From Thioalkalivibrio thiocyanodenitrificans ARhD 1 (GTDB taxonomy: Bacteria; Pseudomonadota; Gammaproteobacteria; Ectothiorhodospirales; Ectothiorhodospiraceae), in contig NZ_KB900536.1 in NCBI RefSeq assembly GCF_000378965.1, positions 2,791,407 through 2,855,406 of the forward strand: a stretch of 64,000 nucleotides of DNA, read 5' to 3'. Under the pieces are notes generated by a model, which was not told the origin of the DNA, did not search any database, and saw only the letters and a program-made list of their open reading frames with translations. The position numbers and the translations under genes are program-made. Of this stretch, positions 30,246 through 38,650 are shown piece by piece; position 1 is the stretch's first letter, and every line of letters begins with the position of its first letter.

Positions 30246-30323
30246 GTCCATGCCCATTGACAGGTCCCGGAGTCCGGAAGTGTTGCTGGTCTGCGAGTGC
30301 TGCGGTATTGGTGGAGGAAGCGC

Positions 30324-32714
30324 GTGAGTCTGCTGCGTGATTTCAAGGCCGACCGCCTCATTGCGCGCCTGCTCGACCCCGGTGCGCGTGCAGGCAGCGG
30401 CGAAGAGCACAAACAGTTGGTGTCCAGGCTGAAGCGCCTGGGCGATACCGGTATCCGCAAGCTGATCCAGGCGCTGGGGCGATCGGGCCGCGAGGAGTCT
30501 GCCCGCATCAGTGATCTCCTGGGGCAGCTCCTGGACGACCGGACCCTGCCCCTGTTCAGCGAAGCGCTCACGGACGCCAACCATCTGCTGGCGAGCCGGG
30601 TCTCGCAGATCATGGTCAGCCGTGCCACCTTTGACCCCAACCGGCTGGTGGATCTGCTGGGTCATCCGCAAGTCGCCAGGGCAGCGCTGATGGAGGTCCT
30701 CGAAGCGCACAAGGAACGCCTGGACCTGCCCGTCCTGCTGCGCCAGACGTACTCATTGGAAGCCACAGAGCGCAATGCGCTGTTCCGGTTGATCGGCGAA
30801 GTGGCCGACGAGTCGGTGATCCCGGAATTGCTCAGCCGGATCTCGGGCAAGGATCCTGTGGTGCGCCGGCATATTGTGCGGATCCTCTCCCGGTTCAGGA
30901 CGCCGGAGGTGCGCGAGACCCTCGAGGGCCTGCTCAAGGATCCGGACAAGGGGGTGCGCCAGGCGGCCCTCGCCGGGCTCTCGTCCCAGGAGTCGATGGA
31001 CGCGCGTACTCTGTGTGGCATGTTGCGTGACCGGGATCTGCTGGTTCAGGAGCAGGCCGTCGACGCGATCGTGCGTCTGGATGCACCCGATACCATGACC
31101 CACCTCGTCCCTCTGCTGCATGACGAGTCCGAGCACGTGCGCCGCGCCGCGGTGGAGGTGCTCAACAGTATCGGCACCTCCGGGGCCATCAAGGAACTGC
31201 TGGAGTCGGTCAAGGACGCGGACTGGTGGGTGCGTGCCCGTTCCGCGGATGCGTTGGCCAGGATCGGCGGGCCGCGGGTGGTCAAGGCTGTGGTCGACCT
31301 GATCAGGGATGAGGACGAATTCATCCGCCGCTCCGCCATCGAGATCCTCAACTCCACACGGGACGAGCAATCCCTGAGCCATCTCATCGATGCTCTGGAG
31401 GACTCCGACTGGTGGGTGCGGGAACGGGCCGTGGACGCCTTGGCCAATATCGGCAACAAGGCTGCCGTACCTGCCCTGGTACGGATGCTCAAGCGCGACC
31501 AGAAAGCGGCGCCGACGGTGTTGCGTGCACTGGCCAAGCTGGGCGATGAACGAGTCATTCACGCGGTGCTTGAACAGCTCAGGAAATCGGACGTGCCCGT
31601 GCAGATGGAAGCATTGCATACCCTGGGCGCACTGGCCGGGTCCGAAAACGCCGGCAAGATCGGTGACGCCATCCTGCGGTACACGGCGAAGGCCGCCCCC
31701 GAGATCCGGGAGGCCGCCGAGGAGGTGTGCGATCGCCTGAGGGCCAAGTATTCCACGGCGGCTTCGCTGGGATCCGGCAAACAGGAATCCGCGGATGAAG
31801 CCATGGCGCTTTCCATGCTGCAGTCCCCGAGTGATTCCGGCGTGCGCCAGGCCTTGCCGGCAGGCGGTCCCGTCCTGGATGTGGCCGCGCTGTCAACAGG
31901 CGACATGCTGGGAGACCGCTACCGCTACGTGCGGCGGGTCGGTCGGGGCGCCTTTGGCACGGTGCTCCTTGTGGAGGACGTGATCATCGCGGAAACGGTG
32001 ATCCTCAAGATCCTGCATGCGCAGATGGCCGCCGACGAGGAAATGATCCGCCGCTTCGTTCAGGAGATGCGCCTGTCGCGAAAGATCACCCATGAGAACG
32101 TCATCCGTATCTATGATTTCCTCAATATCCAGGGCCTTCTGGCCATTTCCATGGAGTACTTTCCATCCCGGACCCTGGCCGCGTACCTGGAGGGGAGCGA
32201 ACCGCTGGCACTGCAGACAGCCATCCGTTATGCGCGCGACATTGCCAGCGGGATGGCCGCTGCCCATGAGACCGGCGTGGTGCATCGCGACCTCAAGCCG
32301 GGTAACGTGCTGATCAACAACCGCGGACTGGTGAAGATCGTGGACTTCGGCGTGGCCGCCGCCCGTGCCGCCGGCGATCAGCAACTCACGCGTACGGGCG
32401 TGCTGATCGGCACCCCCAAGTACATGGCGCCCGAGCAGGTGCTGGGCAAGCCCGTGGATGCGCGCGCCGACATCTACGCCCTTGGCGTATTGATGTACGA
32501 AATGCTTGCGGGCACGCTCCCGTACACCGGTGAGGACCAGATGGCGATCATGTATCAGCATGTGCAGGGCAATGCCAGGCCGGTGAACGAGATCAACCCG
32601 GACGTGCCCCGGACCCTGGGTGCGGTGGTGGCGCGGTTGATGGCGTTGTCCCCCGACGATCGTTATCAAAGCATGGATGAGGTCCGTCGGGCACTGACGG
32701 GCTTTCTCGACTGA
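30324..32714 (+). CDS. HEAT-repeat / serine-threonine protein kinase fusion
   Basis: A 796-residue cytoplasmic protein. Residues about 30-470 are HEAT/PBS-lyase repeats (units such as WWVRARSADALARIGGPRVV and WWVRERAVDALANIGNKAAV). A linker follows, then a Hanks-type kinase at about 530-795. The kinase has a complete active site: G-loop GRGAFGTV, an invariant-lysine candidate (VILKIL), catalytic HRDLKPGN, DFG and APE. It should therefore be active. GTG at 30324 was chosen because GGAGGAAG lies 4 nt upstream and the earlier ATG has none. The stop overlaps the pilT start by 1 bp (TGATG), so the kinase is translated together with the pilus ATPases. The HEAT part is probably the substrate or scaffold-binding domain. 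Confidence 0.85.
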   Translation: MSLLRDFKADRLIARLLDPGARAGSGEEHKQLVSRLKRLGDTGIRKLIQALGRSGREESARISDLLGQLLDDRTLPLFSEALTDANHLLASRVSQIMVSRATFDPNRLVDLLGHPQVARAALMEVLEAHKERLDLPVLLRQTYSLEATERNALFRLIGEVADESVIPELLSRISGKDPVVRRHIVRILSRFRTPEVRETLEGLLKDPDKGVRQAALAGLSSQESMDARTLCGMLRDRDLLVQEQAVDAIVRLDAPDTMTHLVPLLHDESEHVRRAAVEVLNSIGTSGAIKELLESVKDADWWVRARSADALARIGGPRVVKAVVDLIRDEDEFIRRSAIEILNSTRDEQSLSHLIDALEDSDWWVRERAVDALANIGNKAAVPALVRMLKRDQKAAPTVLRALAKLGDERVIHAVLEQLRKSDVPVQMEALHTLGALAGSENAGKIGDAILRYTAKAAPEIREAAEEVCDRLRAKYSTAASLGSGKQESADEAMALSMLQSPSDSGVRQALPAGGPVLDVAALSTGDMLGDRYRYVRRVGRGAFGTVLLVEDVIIAETVILKILHAQMAADEEMIRRFVQEMRLSRKITHENVIRIYDFLNIQGLLAISMEYFPSRTLAAYLEGSEPLALQTAIRYARDIASGMAAAHETGVVHRDLKPGNVLINNRGLVKIVDFGVAAARAAGDQQLTRTGVLIGTPKYMAPEQVLGKPVDARADIYALGVLMYEMLAGTLPYTGEDQMAIMYQHVQGNARPVNEINPDVPRTLGAVVARLMALSPDDRYQSMDEVRRALTGFLD

Positions 32715-34951: not shown

Positions 34952-35064
34952 GCCACAGAGGACACAGAGGGCACAGAGAAGATCCAATGCGGCAAGTGCG
35001 AATCCTGCCCAAAACGCGTTGCGAACTTCCTCTGTGCCCTCTGTGACCTCTGTGACCTCTGTGG
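34952..35064. repeat. Short-repeat hairpin (ACAGAGG dialect), copy 1
   Basis: The left arm (34952-34978) is GCCACAGAGG plus ACACAGAGG- and GCACAGAG-type 9-mers. The right arm (35029-35064) holds four copies of the complementary CCTCTGTGNC-type unit. The spacer is about 50 nt. The same dialect recurs at 61492-61628. It lies between the convergent pil operon and the anti-sigma gene. Confidence 0.9.
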
Positions 35065-35104
35065 CTGAAGGGTTTGCGCCTGGCCGAAGGTTCAGGACGG
35101 GTTC

Positions 35105-35857
35105 CTAAGCGCGCACGTAGACCCAGCCGTCCTGCAGGCGTTCGATGATGTGATCCACGGCGGACTGGGTGGTGCGGGTGCCGGTGAGCAGGCGGGTGCG
35201 CACACCCTGCCGTGCCAATACCTCCATGGTGTTCTGGCAGGCGATGAAATGGATGTTGTCGTACTGTTCCGACAGCTGGCGGATGCGTTCCACCTGGGTC
35301 GAGACTTCCTCCCGGAACAGGCCGAGGCCCGCGGAGTTGGCCACGACCTCGATCTCGAGCCCCGGTCCCGGGTAGGAACTGAGCAGCCGCTCGGCCCGGT
35401 CGATGACCTCGGAAAAACGCTGCGCGCCGCCCTGGCTGATGTGCAGGACGAACTTGTTGTGCCGGGTGTGTGACGGATTGATCCGTACGCCTTCCTGCTC
35501 GATGGCATCCGCGGGCTGGGCGGATGCCACCACCGCTTCCGGTGCCGCAAGCCGTTCCGTTGCCGCAGGGAACATCAGGCCGGCGGCGAAACCGACGCCC
35601 AGCAGCACGGCCGCGGCGGCCATGGCCGACAACCGCGCCCGGCCCGTGGGCCGCGCATTGTTGCGTTGCGGAGGGCGGGCGCCCGCATAGGCGTGATGCA
35701 CCAGCGTCTTGACGTGGTGCAGCCGGCACGCGGCGTCGCGCAGCGCCGCATCCTCGCGGATGCGGATGAGGATCTCACGGCGCGGATCCGTGTCCAGTTC
35801 GCCGTCCACCAGTGCGTTGAGGCCGTGTTCGTCCTCGTCGCGGGTCTTGTCCATCAC
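35105..35857 (-). CDS. Anti-sigma factor with extracytoplasmic DsrE-like domain
   Basis: A 250-residue protein. The N-terminal cytoplasmic part (LNALVDGELDTDPRREI) has the anti-sigma look, including ACRLHHVKTLVHHAY, but no HxxxCxxC zinc motif. One membrane helix, LSAMAAAAVLLGVGFAAGLMF, lies at about residues 77-97. The C-terminal domain (about 125-250) is of the DsrE/DsrF sulfur-relay type: KFVLHISQGG, EIEVVANSAGLGLFRE and the conserved cysteine motif IHFIACQNTME (Cys207), ending GWVYVRA. By the usual topology this domain is periplasmic. It overlaps the sigma factor stop by 4 bp (ATGA). It may sense a sulfur or thiol signal and release the sigma factor; that is inference. Confidence 0.8.
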   Translation of the reverse strand: MMDKTRDEDEHGLNALVDGELDTDPRREILIRIREDAALRDAACRLHHVKTLVHHAYAGARPPQRNNARPTGRARLSAMAAAAVLLGVGFAAGLMFPAATERLAAPEAVVASAQPADAIEQEGVRINPSHTRHNKFVLHISQGGAQRFSEVIDRAERLLSSYPGPGLEIEVVANSAGLGLFREEVSTQVERIRQLSEQYDNIHFIACQNTMEVLARQGVRTRLLTGTRTTQSAVDHIIERLQDGWVYVRA

Positions 35858-36411
35858 TTCACTCTCCAGAGAATCCGGCGGCTCGCGGTATCGGCTTGTG
35901 GTCGAATCGGCTCGAGTGCCGCCTTGAGCGCCCTTCTTGCCCGGCTCAGCCGGCTCATGACCGTGCCGATGGGGATGGCCAGCACCTCGGCCACCTCCGC
36001 GTAACTGAGCCCTTCCAGGTCCACCAGGGTGACGACCTCGCGCTGCCCCATGGGCAGTGCGGCGACGGCCTGACGCACCTGTGCCACGATCTGATCCTGT
36101 GCCTGTTCGTGCTCGGGGCAGCGATCGCAGACAAACAGCACCTCATCCAGCGGCACCTGGGGCTTGAGTCTGCGCAGGTGCTCGCGCCAGCAGTTGTGCA
36201 GGATGGCGAACAGCCATGCGTCCAGGCGATCCGCTTCCCGCAACTGATGCTGCTTGCGCAAAGCCCTGGCCAGCGCTTCCTGCGCGAGGTCATCTGCGAG
36301 CATCTCGTCTCCGCACCATGACAGCGCCAGCCGGAACAGGCGAATCCGGCTTTCCTCGACCTGCTGCTGCCATGCGCGCGAAGCCCCCCCAAAGAAATGG
36401 AGCCAGGTCAT
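35854..36411 (-). CDS. ECF-family RNA polymerase sigma factor
   Basis: A 185-residue extracytoplasmic-function sigma factor. Region 2 contains LADDLAQEALARALR and DAWLFAILHNCWREHLRR. Region 4 contains LPMGQREVVTLVDLEGLSYAEVAEVLAI and TVMSRLSRARRAL. A loop with two cysteines (FVCDRCPEH, about residues 93-101) lies between the regions; it could bind metal or act as a redox switch but is not typical of all ECF factors. It is the first gene of a two-gene operon with its anti-sigma factor (ATGA overlap). Confidence 0.9.
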   Translation of the reverse strand: MTWLHFFGGASRAWQQQVEESRIRLFRLALSWCGDEMLADDLAQEALARALRKQHQLREADRLDAWLFAILHNCWREHLRRLKPQVPLDEVLFVCDRCPEHEQAQDQIVAQVRQAVAALPMGQREVVTLVDLEGLSYAEVAEVLAIPIGTVMSRLSRARRALKAALEPIRPQADTASRRILWRVK

Positions 36412-36792
36412 GCATCCCCTCCCAGGCGATTGCGGCTGAAATCATCGTTGTATGCAGCCCCCGACCCGACCGGGTTGGGGTGCTGGCCGCGCCTCCAATC
36501 CATACTGATGAGCCGGGGCAGTGCTTTATTCCATGCGCCGCCTGGCTCGGGGGATTGTACCGTTGACGCCCGATCATGGAATAAAGCGCCGTCATGCGCC
36601 ATCTAACAGGGTGCCAACGAGCGAGGCACGGACGCCCGACCCCAGGCGGCTGCTGGTCGGAATTCGGCCATGGTCGGCAGGGGGGCGGGGCCTCGGTTTC
36701 AGGATGGGTCCTGAAGCGGGGGGCGGGTGCGTCGCGGGCCTTCAGGCTCCCCCGGGCCGGTGTTTGACGAGAGTATCCCCCTTTGAGCAGCT
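36412..36792. other. Intergenic region with long-range inverted repeat
   Basis: No gene was recognised. A perfect 13-bp inverted repeat, GCTTTATTCCATG (36523-36535) and CATGGAATAAAGC (36575-36587), encloses 39 bp. It is AT-rich relative to its surroundings. It lies about 110 bp upstream of the ECF sigma factor and 230 bp before the intron. Both arms are followed or preceded by GCGCC/GGCGC. Its role is unknown: it could be an operator for the sigma operon, a small RNA or a relic of a mobile element. Confidence 0.5.
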
Positions 36793-36818
36793 GCCCCGGC
36801 ATCGCCGGGGCTTTTTTT
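36793..36818 (+). terminator. Intrinsic terminator serving as group II intron target
   Basis: GCCCCGGC (36793-36800) pairs with GCCGGGGC (36804-36811), followed by seven T residues. The first intron base follows at once. No obvious plus-strand gene ends just upstream, so the gene it once served is not recognisable in the window. Confidence 0.85.
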
Positions 36819-38650
36819 GTGCGCCCGGCACGGGCGCACTCCTGGGGGTGCAAGTCCCCCCGTAAGCTGGCCACAGCGAACGAAGCGAAGCGCAACTGCG
36901 GAAGGGTGACCGACCGTGGGGAGGAAGCGTGGAGCGTAAACCGCGAGCCGATGGACAAGAACCGGATACAAGGCGCTGCCGAGCAGGGCGAGCGGGCAAG
37001 AAGCCGCGAAGCTCTCGTGGCCAAGGCGAAGCGGCGTAAATGCGGCGGTTGTGCGGTGAAGGGGTGCGTTCTTACCCGGGGAGATCTCGCCTTGTGCCTG
37101 AAAGGGCGACGGTGTAGAGCCGGAGCGAGAAGTCAGCAGAGGCCGTAGTAGCTGCCAACAAGGGGCGAAGGGCCGAACGAGAAGGAGCGTCAAACGCCTT
37201 GTCGATGAGAACGGTAGAGCATCAGATGCCCGCATCAGCGGGGCGGGTTGTGAACGGCCAGGGTGAAGCCCTGCCCCGAAGGACCAGCGATGAAACCGGC
37301 CTCCCGCGACGAGGATCGGAGGACGCAGGGCGGGACCTGTTGGCGCAGGCGCTCGCGAGGGAGAACATGCAACGCGCCTGGAAGCGCGTGAAGGCAAACA
37401 AGGGAGCTGCGGGTGTTGACGGTCTGGACATAGCCCGGACGGGAGAACACCTCAAACACGCATGGCCGAGCATCCGGCAGCAGTTGCTGGACGGCACGTA
37501 CAGGCCGCAGCCTGTGCGGCGCGTGGGCATCCCGAAGCCGGACGGGAGCGAACGGGAGTTGGGGATACCCACCGTCACCGACCGTCTGATTCAGCAGGCA
37601 CTGCTGCAAGTGCTGCAACCGCAGATTGATCCGACCTTCAGCGAGCACAGCCACGGGTTCCGTCCCGGTCGCCGGGCGCGGGACGCGGTGCTGGCCGCGC
37701 AGCGCTACGTGAGCCAAGGTTGCCACATCGTGGTGGACATCGACCTGTCGAAGTTCTTCGACCGGGTCAACCACGACATCCTGATCGAGCGCCTGAGCAG
37801 GCGCGTGAACGATGCCGGGGTCATCCGGCTGGTGCGTGCCTACCTGAGCGCGGGCATCCTGGATGGCGGTGTGGTGATCGAGCGCGTGGGGGGGACGCCG
37901 CAGGGCGGCCCGCTCTCGCCGCTGTTGGCCAACGTGTTGCTGGACGAAGTGGATCGAGCGCTTGAACGCAGAGGCCATCGCTTCGCCCGCTACGCCGACG
38001 ACTGCAACGTGTACGTGCGCAGTCAGAAGGCGGGCGAGCGGGTGATGCGTCTGCTGCGGCGCTGTTACGACAAACTGCGCTTGCGGATCAATGAATCCAA
38101 GAGTGCGGTGGCCCGCGTATTCGGCCGCAAATTCCTTGGTTACGCCCTGTGGCGGTCCGGGGATGGCGAGGTGCGACGCGGGGTGTCGGAAAAGGCGCTG
38201 GAGGCGTTCAGGCAGAGGGTCAGGCAACTGACCCGGCGCAACAGCGGGTGCAGCATGGCAGAGGTGATCGGCAGGTTGCGCAGTTATCTGCTGGGCTGGA
38301 AAGGGTACTTTGGGTTGGCGCAAACCCCCAGTGTCTGGCGCAGGCTGGACGAGTGGATACGCCGCCGCCTACGGTCCTTGCAGCTCAAACAGTGGCGACG
38401 CGGCAAGACGATCTACCGGGAACTGATCCGGCTGGGAGCCAGTGCCCGGGTGGCGCAATCGGTGGCGGCGCTGAGCCGCCGCTGGTGGCATAACAGCCTC
38501 TCTGCCGTGCACCACGTGCTGACGATTGCCTATTTTGAGCGGCTGGGAGTGCCGCGTCTCTCATGACCTCAACTTCTCGAACCGCCCGGTGCGGACCCGC
38601 ATGCCGGGTGGTGTGGCAGGGGAACGGTCAGCTATGCTGACCGCCCCTAT
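36819..38650 (+). mobile_element. Group II intron, bacterial class C type
   Basis: The 5' end is GTGCGCC, the expected intron start, exactly behind the T-run of an intrinsic terminator, the known target of class C introns. The 5' ribozyme region (about 36819-37200) is structured and gene-free. The intron-encoded protein follows. Domain V lies at about 38579-38622 (ACCGCCCGGTGCGGACCCGC and its complement), and domain VI is a short hairpin (GGTCAGC-TAT-GCTGACC). The 3' end is placed at CCCCTAT (38650), fitting the AY ending. The copy appears complete and is therefore probably active or recently active. It separates the terminator from the rplM leader. Confidence 0.88.
37205..38566 (+). CDS. ltrA: Group II intron reverse transcriptase/maturase
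   Basis: A 453-residue intron-encoded protein. The reverse-transcriptase motifs are intact: GAAGVDGLD, IPKPDGSERELGIPTVTDR, FRPGRRARDAV, DIDLSKFFDRVNHD, GTPQGGPLSPLLANV and catalytic YADDCNVY. The C-terminal maturase (GIIM) domain is at about residues 330-450 (RLRSYLLGWKGYFGLAQTP). There is no HNH endonuclease domain, as is normal for class C introns. ATG at 37205 is preferred over the TTG two codons earlier. It helps splice the intron RNA and copies it into new terminator sites. Confidence 0.95.
   Translation: MRTVEHQMPASAGRVVNGQGEALPRRTSDETGLPRRGSEDAGRDLLAQALARENMQRAWKRVKANKGAAGVDGLDIARTGEHLKHAWPSIRQQLLDGTYRPQPVRRVGIPKPDGSERELGIPTVTDRLIQQALLQVLQPQIDPTFSEHSHGFRPGRRARDAVLAAQRYVSQGCHIVVDIDLSKFFDRVNHDILIERLSRRVNDAGVIRLVRAYLSAGILDGGVVIERVGGTPQGGPLSPLLANVLLDEVDRALERRGHRFARYADDCNVYVRSQKAGERVMRLLRRCYDKLRLRINESKSAVARVFGRKFLGYALWRSGDGEVRRGVSEKALEAFRQRVRQLTRRNSGCSMAEVIGRLRSYLLGWKGYFGLAQTPSVWRRLDEWIRRRLRSLQLKQWRRGKTIYRELIRLGASARVAQSVAALSRRWWHNSLSAVHHVLTIAYFERLGVPRLS

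Follow-up and report, generated by a model that had tools for sequence, protein, structure and literature searches.

A candidate sulfur-responsive ECF switch with a DsrE-like domain on its anti-sigma factor in Thioalkalivibrio and other Gammaproteobacteria

Can a sulfur-oxidising bacterium read the sulfur outside its cytoplasm through a sigma factor? The question is raised by a locus of Thioalkalivibrio thiocyanodenitrificans ARhD 1, at which an ECF sigma factor is encoded together with a predicted anti-sigma factor that carries a DsrE-like domain, that is, a domain of the kind that, according to the available part of the text of PMC6620896, binds sulfane sulfur on a conserved cysteine. We carried out a computational analysis of this locus, using a stretch of 64,000 nucleotides (henceforth the window) and comparing it with related genomes, with a sample of its class and with published structures. 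Based on these sequence comparisons, a membrane anti-sigma factor with an extracytoplasmic DsrE-like domain probably holds back a sigma factor that turns on sulfur-oxidation genes.

Results

An ECF sigma factor encoded with a predicted membrane anti-sigma factor

The original prediction of an ECF sigma/anti-sigma pair agrees with two open reading frames on the minus strand, which overlap by 4 bases. The pair and the parts of its second protein have the following positions in the window.

35854-36411, minus strand: ECF sigma factor, 185 aa, with regions 2 and 4 and CDRC at residues 95-98
35105-35857, minus strand: anti-sigma factor, 250 aa, with anti-sigma domain, membrane helix and DsrE domain
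35678-35833, minus strand: anti-sigma domain, about residues 9-60 (limits by eye), holding Cys44
35570-35626, minus strand: membrane helix, residues 78-96, its N side predicted from charge to face inward
35108-35461, minus strand: DsrE domain, residues 133-250, presumed periplasmic
35237-35239, minus strand: codon of Cys207, a residue shared by all 55 distinct fusions

The first protein matched Pfam region 2 (E=3.4e-12) and region 4 (E=2.6e-17) with a short linker between them, as in ECF sigma factors, and scored 76.6 bits against TIGR02937 (cut-off 42.9). Among named relatives, a Thioalkalivibrio MAG is the closest (98%), followed by T. denitrificans (78%) and T. sulfidiphilus (69%). The CDRC pair between regions 2 and 4, to which attention had been drawn as unusual, is present in the window sigma factor, but its importance did not hold up across the family: a CxxC or CxxxC pair was found in 19 of 48 linked sigma factors (two with CxxxC), most of them from the window's family and one (L034) from another, and was absent from 29, among them the linked sigma factor of T. 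denitrificans, in the same genus. Since 29 of the 48 do without it, we rejected CDRC as part of a general mechanism; it may have a local role.

The C-terminal part of the anti-sigma factor has a DsrE fold

Searched alone, the anti-sigma protein gave no relevant Pfam match, either to DsrE (PF02635) or to an anti-sigma domain, and of 14 family members PF02635 matched 5 at E<=0.05, the best of them at 1e-6. In searches of solved structures, phmmer aligned residues 136-249 of the window protein with the DsrE-like 1l1s (E=3.5e-8), and a profile of the 14 family sequences found both 1l1s (9.2e-20) and 2pd2 (5.1e-11). An AlphaFold2 model built from 4 sequences had low confidence (mean pLDDT 53; 58-78 in most of the DsrE part and <50 in the last residues). 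With the C-terminal part of this low-confidence model, Foldseek placed 1l1s at the top (E=9.8e-7), and VIA, run with the same low-confidence model, gave Z scores of 11.2 for 1l1s, 10.7 for 2pd2, 8.8 for YchN, 8.1 for TusD and 7.8 for DsrE. (A single-sequence AlphaFold model of the C-terminal domain, with a pLDDT of 35, was of no use.) The DsrE assignment is based on fold, not on Pfam score: DsrE-family structures came first in both structural comparisons and the profile search agrees, which upholds the DsrE-like C-terminal domain that had been proposed from the sequence.

The fusion domain has its fold in common with MTH1491 (1l1s), ST0148 (2pd2), YchN, TusD and DsrE, and with 1l1s it also shares the cysteine motif and the GW-Y ending. 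Unlike these chains, which consist of one domain of 108-130 aa, it is tethered to a membrane anti-sigma factor. Among 55 distinct fusions, C207, G244, W245 and Y247 are invariant, H139 is kept in 54 and Cys44 of the anti-sigma domain in 51; Cys44 and Cys207 are the only cysteines of the window protein. The conserved cysteine to which the original prediction pointed (i.e., Cys207 in ACQNT) is thus present in every distinct homologue. The protein has one hydrophobic helix (residues 78-96), and its N side is richer in K+R in 53 of the 55 homologues. Given this charge distribution, we infer that the DsrE domain lies outside the cytoplasm, in line with the extracytoplasmic position first suggested for it; by its predicted topology, the anti-sigma factor, encoded 3' of the sigma factor, is a single-pass membrane protein.

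The fusion is widespread in its class and adjoins a sigma gene in all distinct copies

Matches to the fusion were found in 31 of 58 relatives searched (own genome included), and a full-length fusion in no fewer than 66 of the 369 genomes sampled from the class Gammaproteobacteria; the sigma/anti-sigma-DsrE pairs that it had been proposed to look for in other genomes thus form a large family. Within a phylum sample of 398 genomes, with at most 6 candidates scored in each, full-length fusions were detected in three genomes, all of the same class (G000, G602 and G653), the other rows being partial matches, mostly to the DsrE part or to the anti-sigma part. A plasmid search with the anti-sigma protein gave no match. 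A sigma gene adjoins the fusion in all 55 distinct copies (7 of them by six-frame search), and the genome of T. thiocyanodenitrificans has a second sigma/anti-sigma-DsrE pair (G000:C1:1726306-1728152) with an in-line stand-alone DsrE gene and a promoter-like site of its own.

We compared 48 loci with their flanks, 47 with the fusion and one (L039) with a DsrE protein only, and distinguished three layouts, in which the names glnE, ilvE and porin-like were given by eye.

Layout 1: sigma, anti-sigma and stand-alone DsrE, all in one direction
Layout 2: sigma and anti-sigma, with a stand-alone DsrE gene and a porin-like gene in the divergent direction
Layout 3: the pair between glnE/ilvE and pilT/pilU or groESL

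Layout 3 is the position of the window-type pair in T. denitrificans and T. sulfidiphilus. Neither glnE nor ilvE was found in the window, and the region beyond its divergent promoter (see below) is therefore rearranged. The porin-like gene is present in 22 of the 48 loci, mostly beside a divergent DsrE gene (e.g., L034:9304-10626); at the limits applied, the representative matched nothing in Pfam or NCBIfam. Two further features of the window were noted by eye: repeats of the CACAGAGG type that face each other in the interval separating pilU from the anti-sigma gene (34955-35065), and a large plus-strand ORF (30297-32714), beside two PilT-type genes, in which HEAT-like repeats appear to be fused to a serine/threonine kinase.

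A stand-alone DsrE gene occurs in 33 of the 48 loci; the window pair has none beside it. The stand-alone proteins carry a domain related to that of the fusion and differ from it in lacking an anti-sigma domain and in having a signal-peptide-like N-terminal start, as judged by eye, with which they are apparently secreted. Their cysteine is kept in 37 of 38 aligned proteins (lost in L040) and in 53 of 55 of a wider set, not all of which lie beside pairs. The protein of L033 matched Pfam DsrE (4.1e-9); that of L034, of the divergent type, had no Pfam match at 0.001 and is named DsrE because it is similar to the protein of L033. In two stand-alone proteins (L040:6682-7164 and L043:6545-6991, the latter by eye) SRRS replaces the C motif, with the cysteine kept in the neighbouring anti-sigma DsrE.

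Genomes with the fusion encode sulfur oxidation

SoxB was found in 65 of the 66 fusion genomes (that of G135 as a partial match below the cut-off) as compared with 85 of 303 others. DsrA was found in 51 of the 66 versus 61 of the 303, and its frequency in the fusion genomes means that co-occurrence cannot separate periplasmic from cytoplasmic sulfur signals. Every one of the 66 has SoxB or DsrA, the genome without SoxB (G091) having DsrA, and a control, NarG, showed no difference (9 of 40 fusion genomes vs. 7 of 40 others). As the genomes are related, Fisher p values overstate their independence and are a guide only. Closer to the pairs, 5 of 47 fusion loci, belonging to 4 genera, have soxB in their fetched flanks (representatives named by NCBIfam), and in two of these, of one genus, soxXYZAB follows 3' of the pair in the same direction. 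In L009, a reading frame named SoxC/SorA-like by eye is located 5' of the pair.

A shared promoter motif links the pair to candidate target genes

A dyad search 5' of the sigma genes detected GGAAT...CGTC in 30 of 50 regions; in three shuffles no dyad exceeded 5. When aligned, a promoter of the form GGAATA-N16-CGTCT precedes the sigma gene in 41 of 51 regions, with a spacing of 16 in 34 of the 41; under identical scoring, 100 shuffles never gave more than 3 of 51, and a site was scored in 295 of 10,000 random windows. The window has two such predicted sites, one for each direction, and a putative transcript behind the second.

36507-36532, minus strand: predicted sigma-anti-sigma operon promoter, GGAATA-N16-CATC, lying 121 bp upstream of the sigma start codon
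36578-36603, plus strand: predicted divergent promoter, GGAATA-N16-CATC
36610-36818, plus strand: putative small RNA, about 200 nt long, predicted to start at the divergent promoter and ending at an intrinsic terminator

Like sites are present in both directions in T. denitrificans and T. sulfidiphilus. Behind the divergent promoter we looked by eye for a short protein and saw no conserved reading frame, which is why we regard the transcript as a putative small RNA. Its 5' end is conserved in three species; the terminator (stem about 36793-36811, T run from 36812) is present in the window, in the 98% relative (L001) and in T. denitrificans, and was not found in T. sulfidiphilus. Rfam SorX was rejected as an identity for this RNA, scoring 20.2 bits where 46.6 are needed (E=0.11). 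Next to it lies a plus-strand group II intron with a reverse transcriptase/maturase (about 36819-38566; TIGR04416 1.4e-120; Rfam RF02001 and RF01998), which apparently starts with GTGCG right after the T run of the terminator, at the point where L001 diverges.

Across the whole genome of T. thiocyanodenitrificans, GGAATA-N15/16-CRTC has 24 matches, compared with 3 for a reversed control pattern. Eight of these lie outside called ORFs, including those of the paralogous sigma gene, both window sites, a site at a ModE-type gene and one 135 bp before soxB. The other 16 start inside called ORFs, so that most are probably background, though the reversed pattern gives only 3. Among these 16 is a site 209 bp upstream of a SorA-like gene, overlapping only the end of the preceding ORF; the gene product matched NCBIfam SorA at 1.2e-75, yet below the SorA cut-off. 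SorA-type enzymes need molybdenum. The site at the ModE-type molybdate regulator gene (G000:C1:570792), ECF26-like and 109 bp before the gene, may be due to chance.

We also searched for the motif at soxB and at genes near the pairs in other genomes. Of 40 soxB regions from fusion genomes, 10 have a strict site in the 250 bp preceding the gene and 30 lack one, as compared with 0 of 20 regions from other genomes (p=0.023); over the whole 4.3 kb soxB region the counts were 11 of 40 and 2 of 20, which is not significant (p=0.19). DsrE genes of the divergent type (DSRb) have a site in 12 of 21 cases, compared with 303 of 20,000 random windows; same-operon DsrE genes (DSRa) seldom have one (2 of 17), and none of the 22 porin-like genes does. 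The sulfur role originally proposed for the system is thus supported by co-occurrence with SoxB, by sox genes beside some of the pairs, and by matching promoters at soxB and at the SorA-like gene.

The proposed circuit resembles ECF26 and differs in its putative sensor domain

The motif corresponds to that of the ECF26 group, the promoter of which is given as GGAAT at -35 and CGTC at -10 (PMC6527743) or as GGAATA/GT (PMC6180224) in the available text of these papers. The ECF26 consensus was recovered across the family, with the window's own site reading CATC, not CGTC. The described ECF26 systems (RpoE1/RpoE4 of Sinorhizobium meliloti and SigE of Starkeya novella) share with the window family both this consensus and the gene order, i.e., sigma followed by a single-pass anti-sigma factor (accessible portions of PMC3511301, PMC6527743 and PMC6180224); as far as the same sources describe them, these sigma factors are sulfite-responsive in Sinorhizobium and Starkeya and govern enzymes that oxidise sulfite (PMC3511301, PMC6527743). 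For the C-terminal domain of the ECF26 anti-sigma factors a certain similarity to RsiW is described (PMC6180224, in part), in contrast to the DsrE domain of the window family.

At the protein level, the window sigma factor shares 45% identity over 144 aa with one from Sinorhizobium, which is RpoE6 (ECF26) by its gene context, having been recognised by eye from its divergent protease gene. The family profile matched the RpoE6-type Sinorhizobium anti-sigma factor at positions 6-98 (E=4.8e-7 in a small ORF set), a match that covers the anti-sigma domain and helix only, not the DsrE part; pairwise BLAST of the window anti-sigma factor with this protein was not significant (E=0.08). Full-length DsrE fusions were found in the class of the window, unlike the ECF26 anti-sigma factor of Sinorhizobium. 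The promoter match, together with an RpoE6-type match that stops short of the DsrE part, therefore argues for an ECF26-like circuit with a different sensor domain. The best reading is that the circuit is a variant of the ECF26 circuit with a new, presumably periplasmic, sensor, its likeness to ECF26 resting on promoter, gene layout and one sigma identity.

By titles and the opening parts of abstracts, we found no report of a DsrE anti-sigma factor in the open PMC literature, and a word search found no DsrE in the main text of a class I anti-sigma study (PMC7406223) or in the accessible text of PMC8103513. An apparent mention in the part of PMC3511301 searched proved false, the word being DsRed.

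Discussion

With the pairing of the two genes, the fold of the C-terminal domain, its invariant cysteine, the conserved promoter and the association with sulfur-oxidising genomes in hand, we consider it likely that the pair is a sulfur-responsive ECF switch, in which the DsrE anti-sigma factor would release its sigma factor on periplasmic sulfur and so activate sulfur-oxidation genes. Sigma binding, periplasmic sensing, the ligand and the release mechanism are parts that we infer, as follows. At rest, the cytoplasmic anti-sigma domain would hold the sigma factor. Reduced or partly oxidised sulfur in the periplasm would then modify or occupy the DsrE domain at Cys207 (as a persulfide or a sulfite adduct), possibly through the stand-alone DsrE partner encoded at many loci; the signal would pass the single helix and the sigma factor would be released. 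From GGAATA-N16-CGTC promoters, free sigma factor would transcribe the operon that encodes it, the divergent DsrE genes and genes of periplasmic sulfur oxidation (sox, sor-like). The ligand that we prefer at Cys207 is either sulfane sulfur or sulfite, the data fitting both, and the stand-alone DsrE may be a partner.

Which of these ligands would act is where the first alternative enters, a version of this explanation and not its opposite. The signal may be sulfite, as for the alphaproteobacterial ECF26 factors, with the DsrE domain recognising sulfite or thiosulfonate instead of sulfane sulfur; we regard this as quite possible, if short of probable. It draws on the promoter consensus shared with ECF26 systems and on their sulfite-responsive targets, so far as the available text of PMC6527743 and PMC3511301 describes them, as well as on the site 209 bp 5' of the SorA-like gene and the SoxC/SorA-like frame (by eye) upstream of the pair in L009. 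Against it, the C-terminal domain of the known ECF26 anti-sigma factor differs (PMC6180224, in part), so that the ligand need not be shared, and DsrE proteins are known, from the part of PMC6620896 available, to bind sulfane sulfur on their conserved cysteine.

Rather unlikely, in our judgement, is that the DsrE domain is a mere oligomerisation or docking part and that the true input is another protein or a protease cascade, for instance the stand-alone DsrE (33 of 48 loci) or the porin-like protein (22 of 48), both frequent enough to invite the idea; a pure scaffold would have no need of a cysteine that is invariant in 55 of 55 fusions, and the window pair has no adjacent DsrE gene. A general thiol sensor, responding through the DsrE cysteine to oxidants, arsenite or other thiol-binding metals and linked to sulfur only indirectly, is the least probable of the three, for although arsenite changed DsrE/F-like genes in two Thioalkalivibrio species and raised sox genes in one (PMC6620896, accessible text), a stress sensor would be expected to be less confined than to genomes of which all 66 have SoxB or DsrA, and the motif stands before soxB in 10 of 40 regions and before the SorA-like gene.

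Returning to the sulfur-responsive switch, one tentative extension, which we hold to be somewhat unlikely, is that the stand-alone DsrE, once secreted, takes up sulfane sulfur in the periplasm and either hands it on to the anti-sigma DsrE domain or pairs with that domain, which would amount to transmembrane persulfide signalling.

In the open PMC literature we found no description of sulfur sensing outside the cytoplasm that sets sox expression in sulfur-oxidising Gammaproteobacteria. The ECF26 promoter and its sulfite-oxidation circuit are already known; what appears to be new here is a DsrE domain, the putative sensor, on the anti-sigma factor. A defined sigma factor, its anti-sigma factor, a candidate sensor cysteine and a promoter motif make the question of sulfur sensing directly testable, in a system that recurs widely (no fewer than 66 of the 369 genomes sampled from the class) and whose arrangement occurs in many sulfur-oxidising bacteria. 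If persulfide signalling of this kind were true, a sulfur carrier would serve as a messenger, and sulfur oxidisers would read their periplasmic sulfur load directly.
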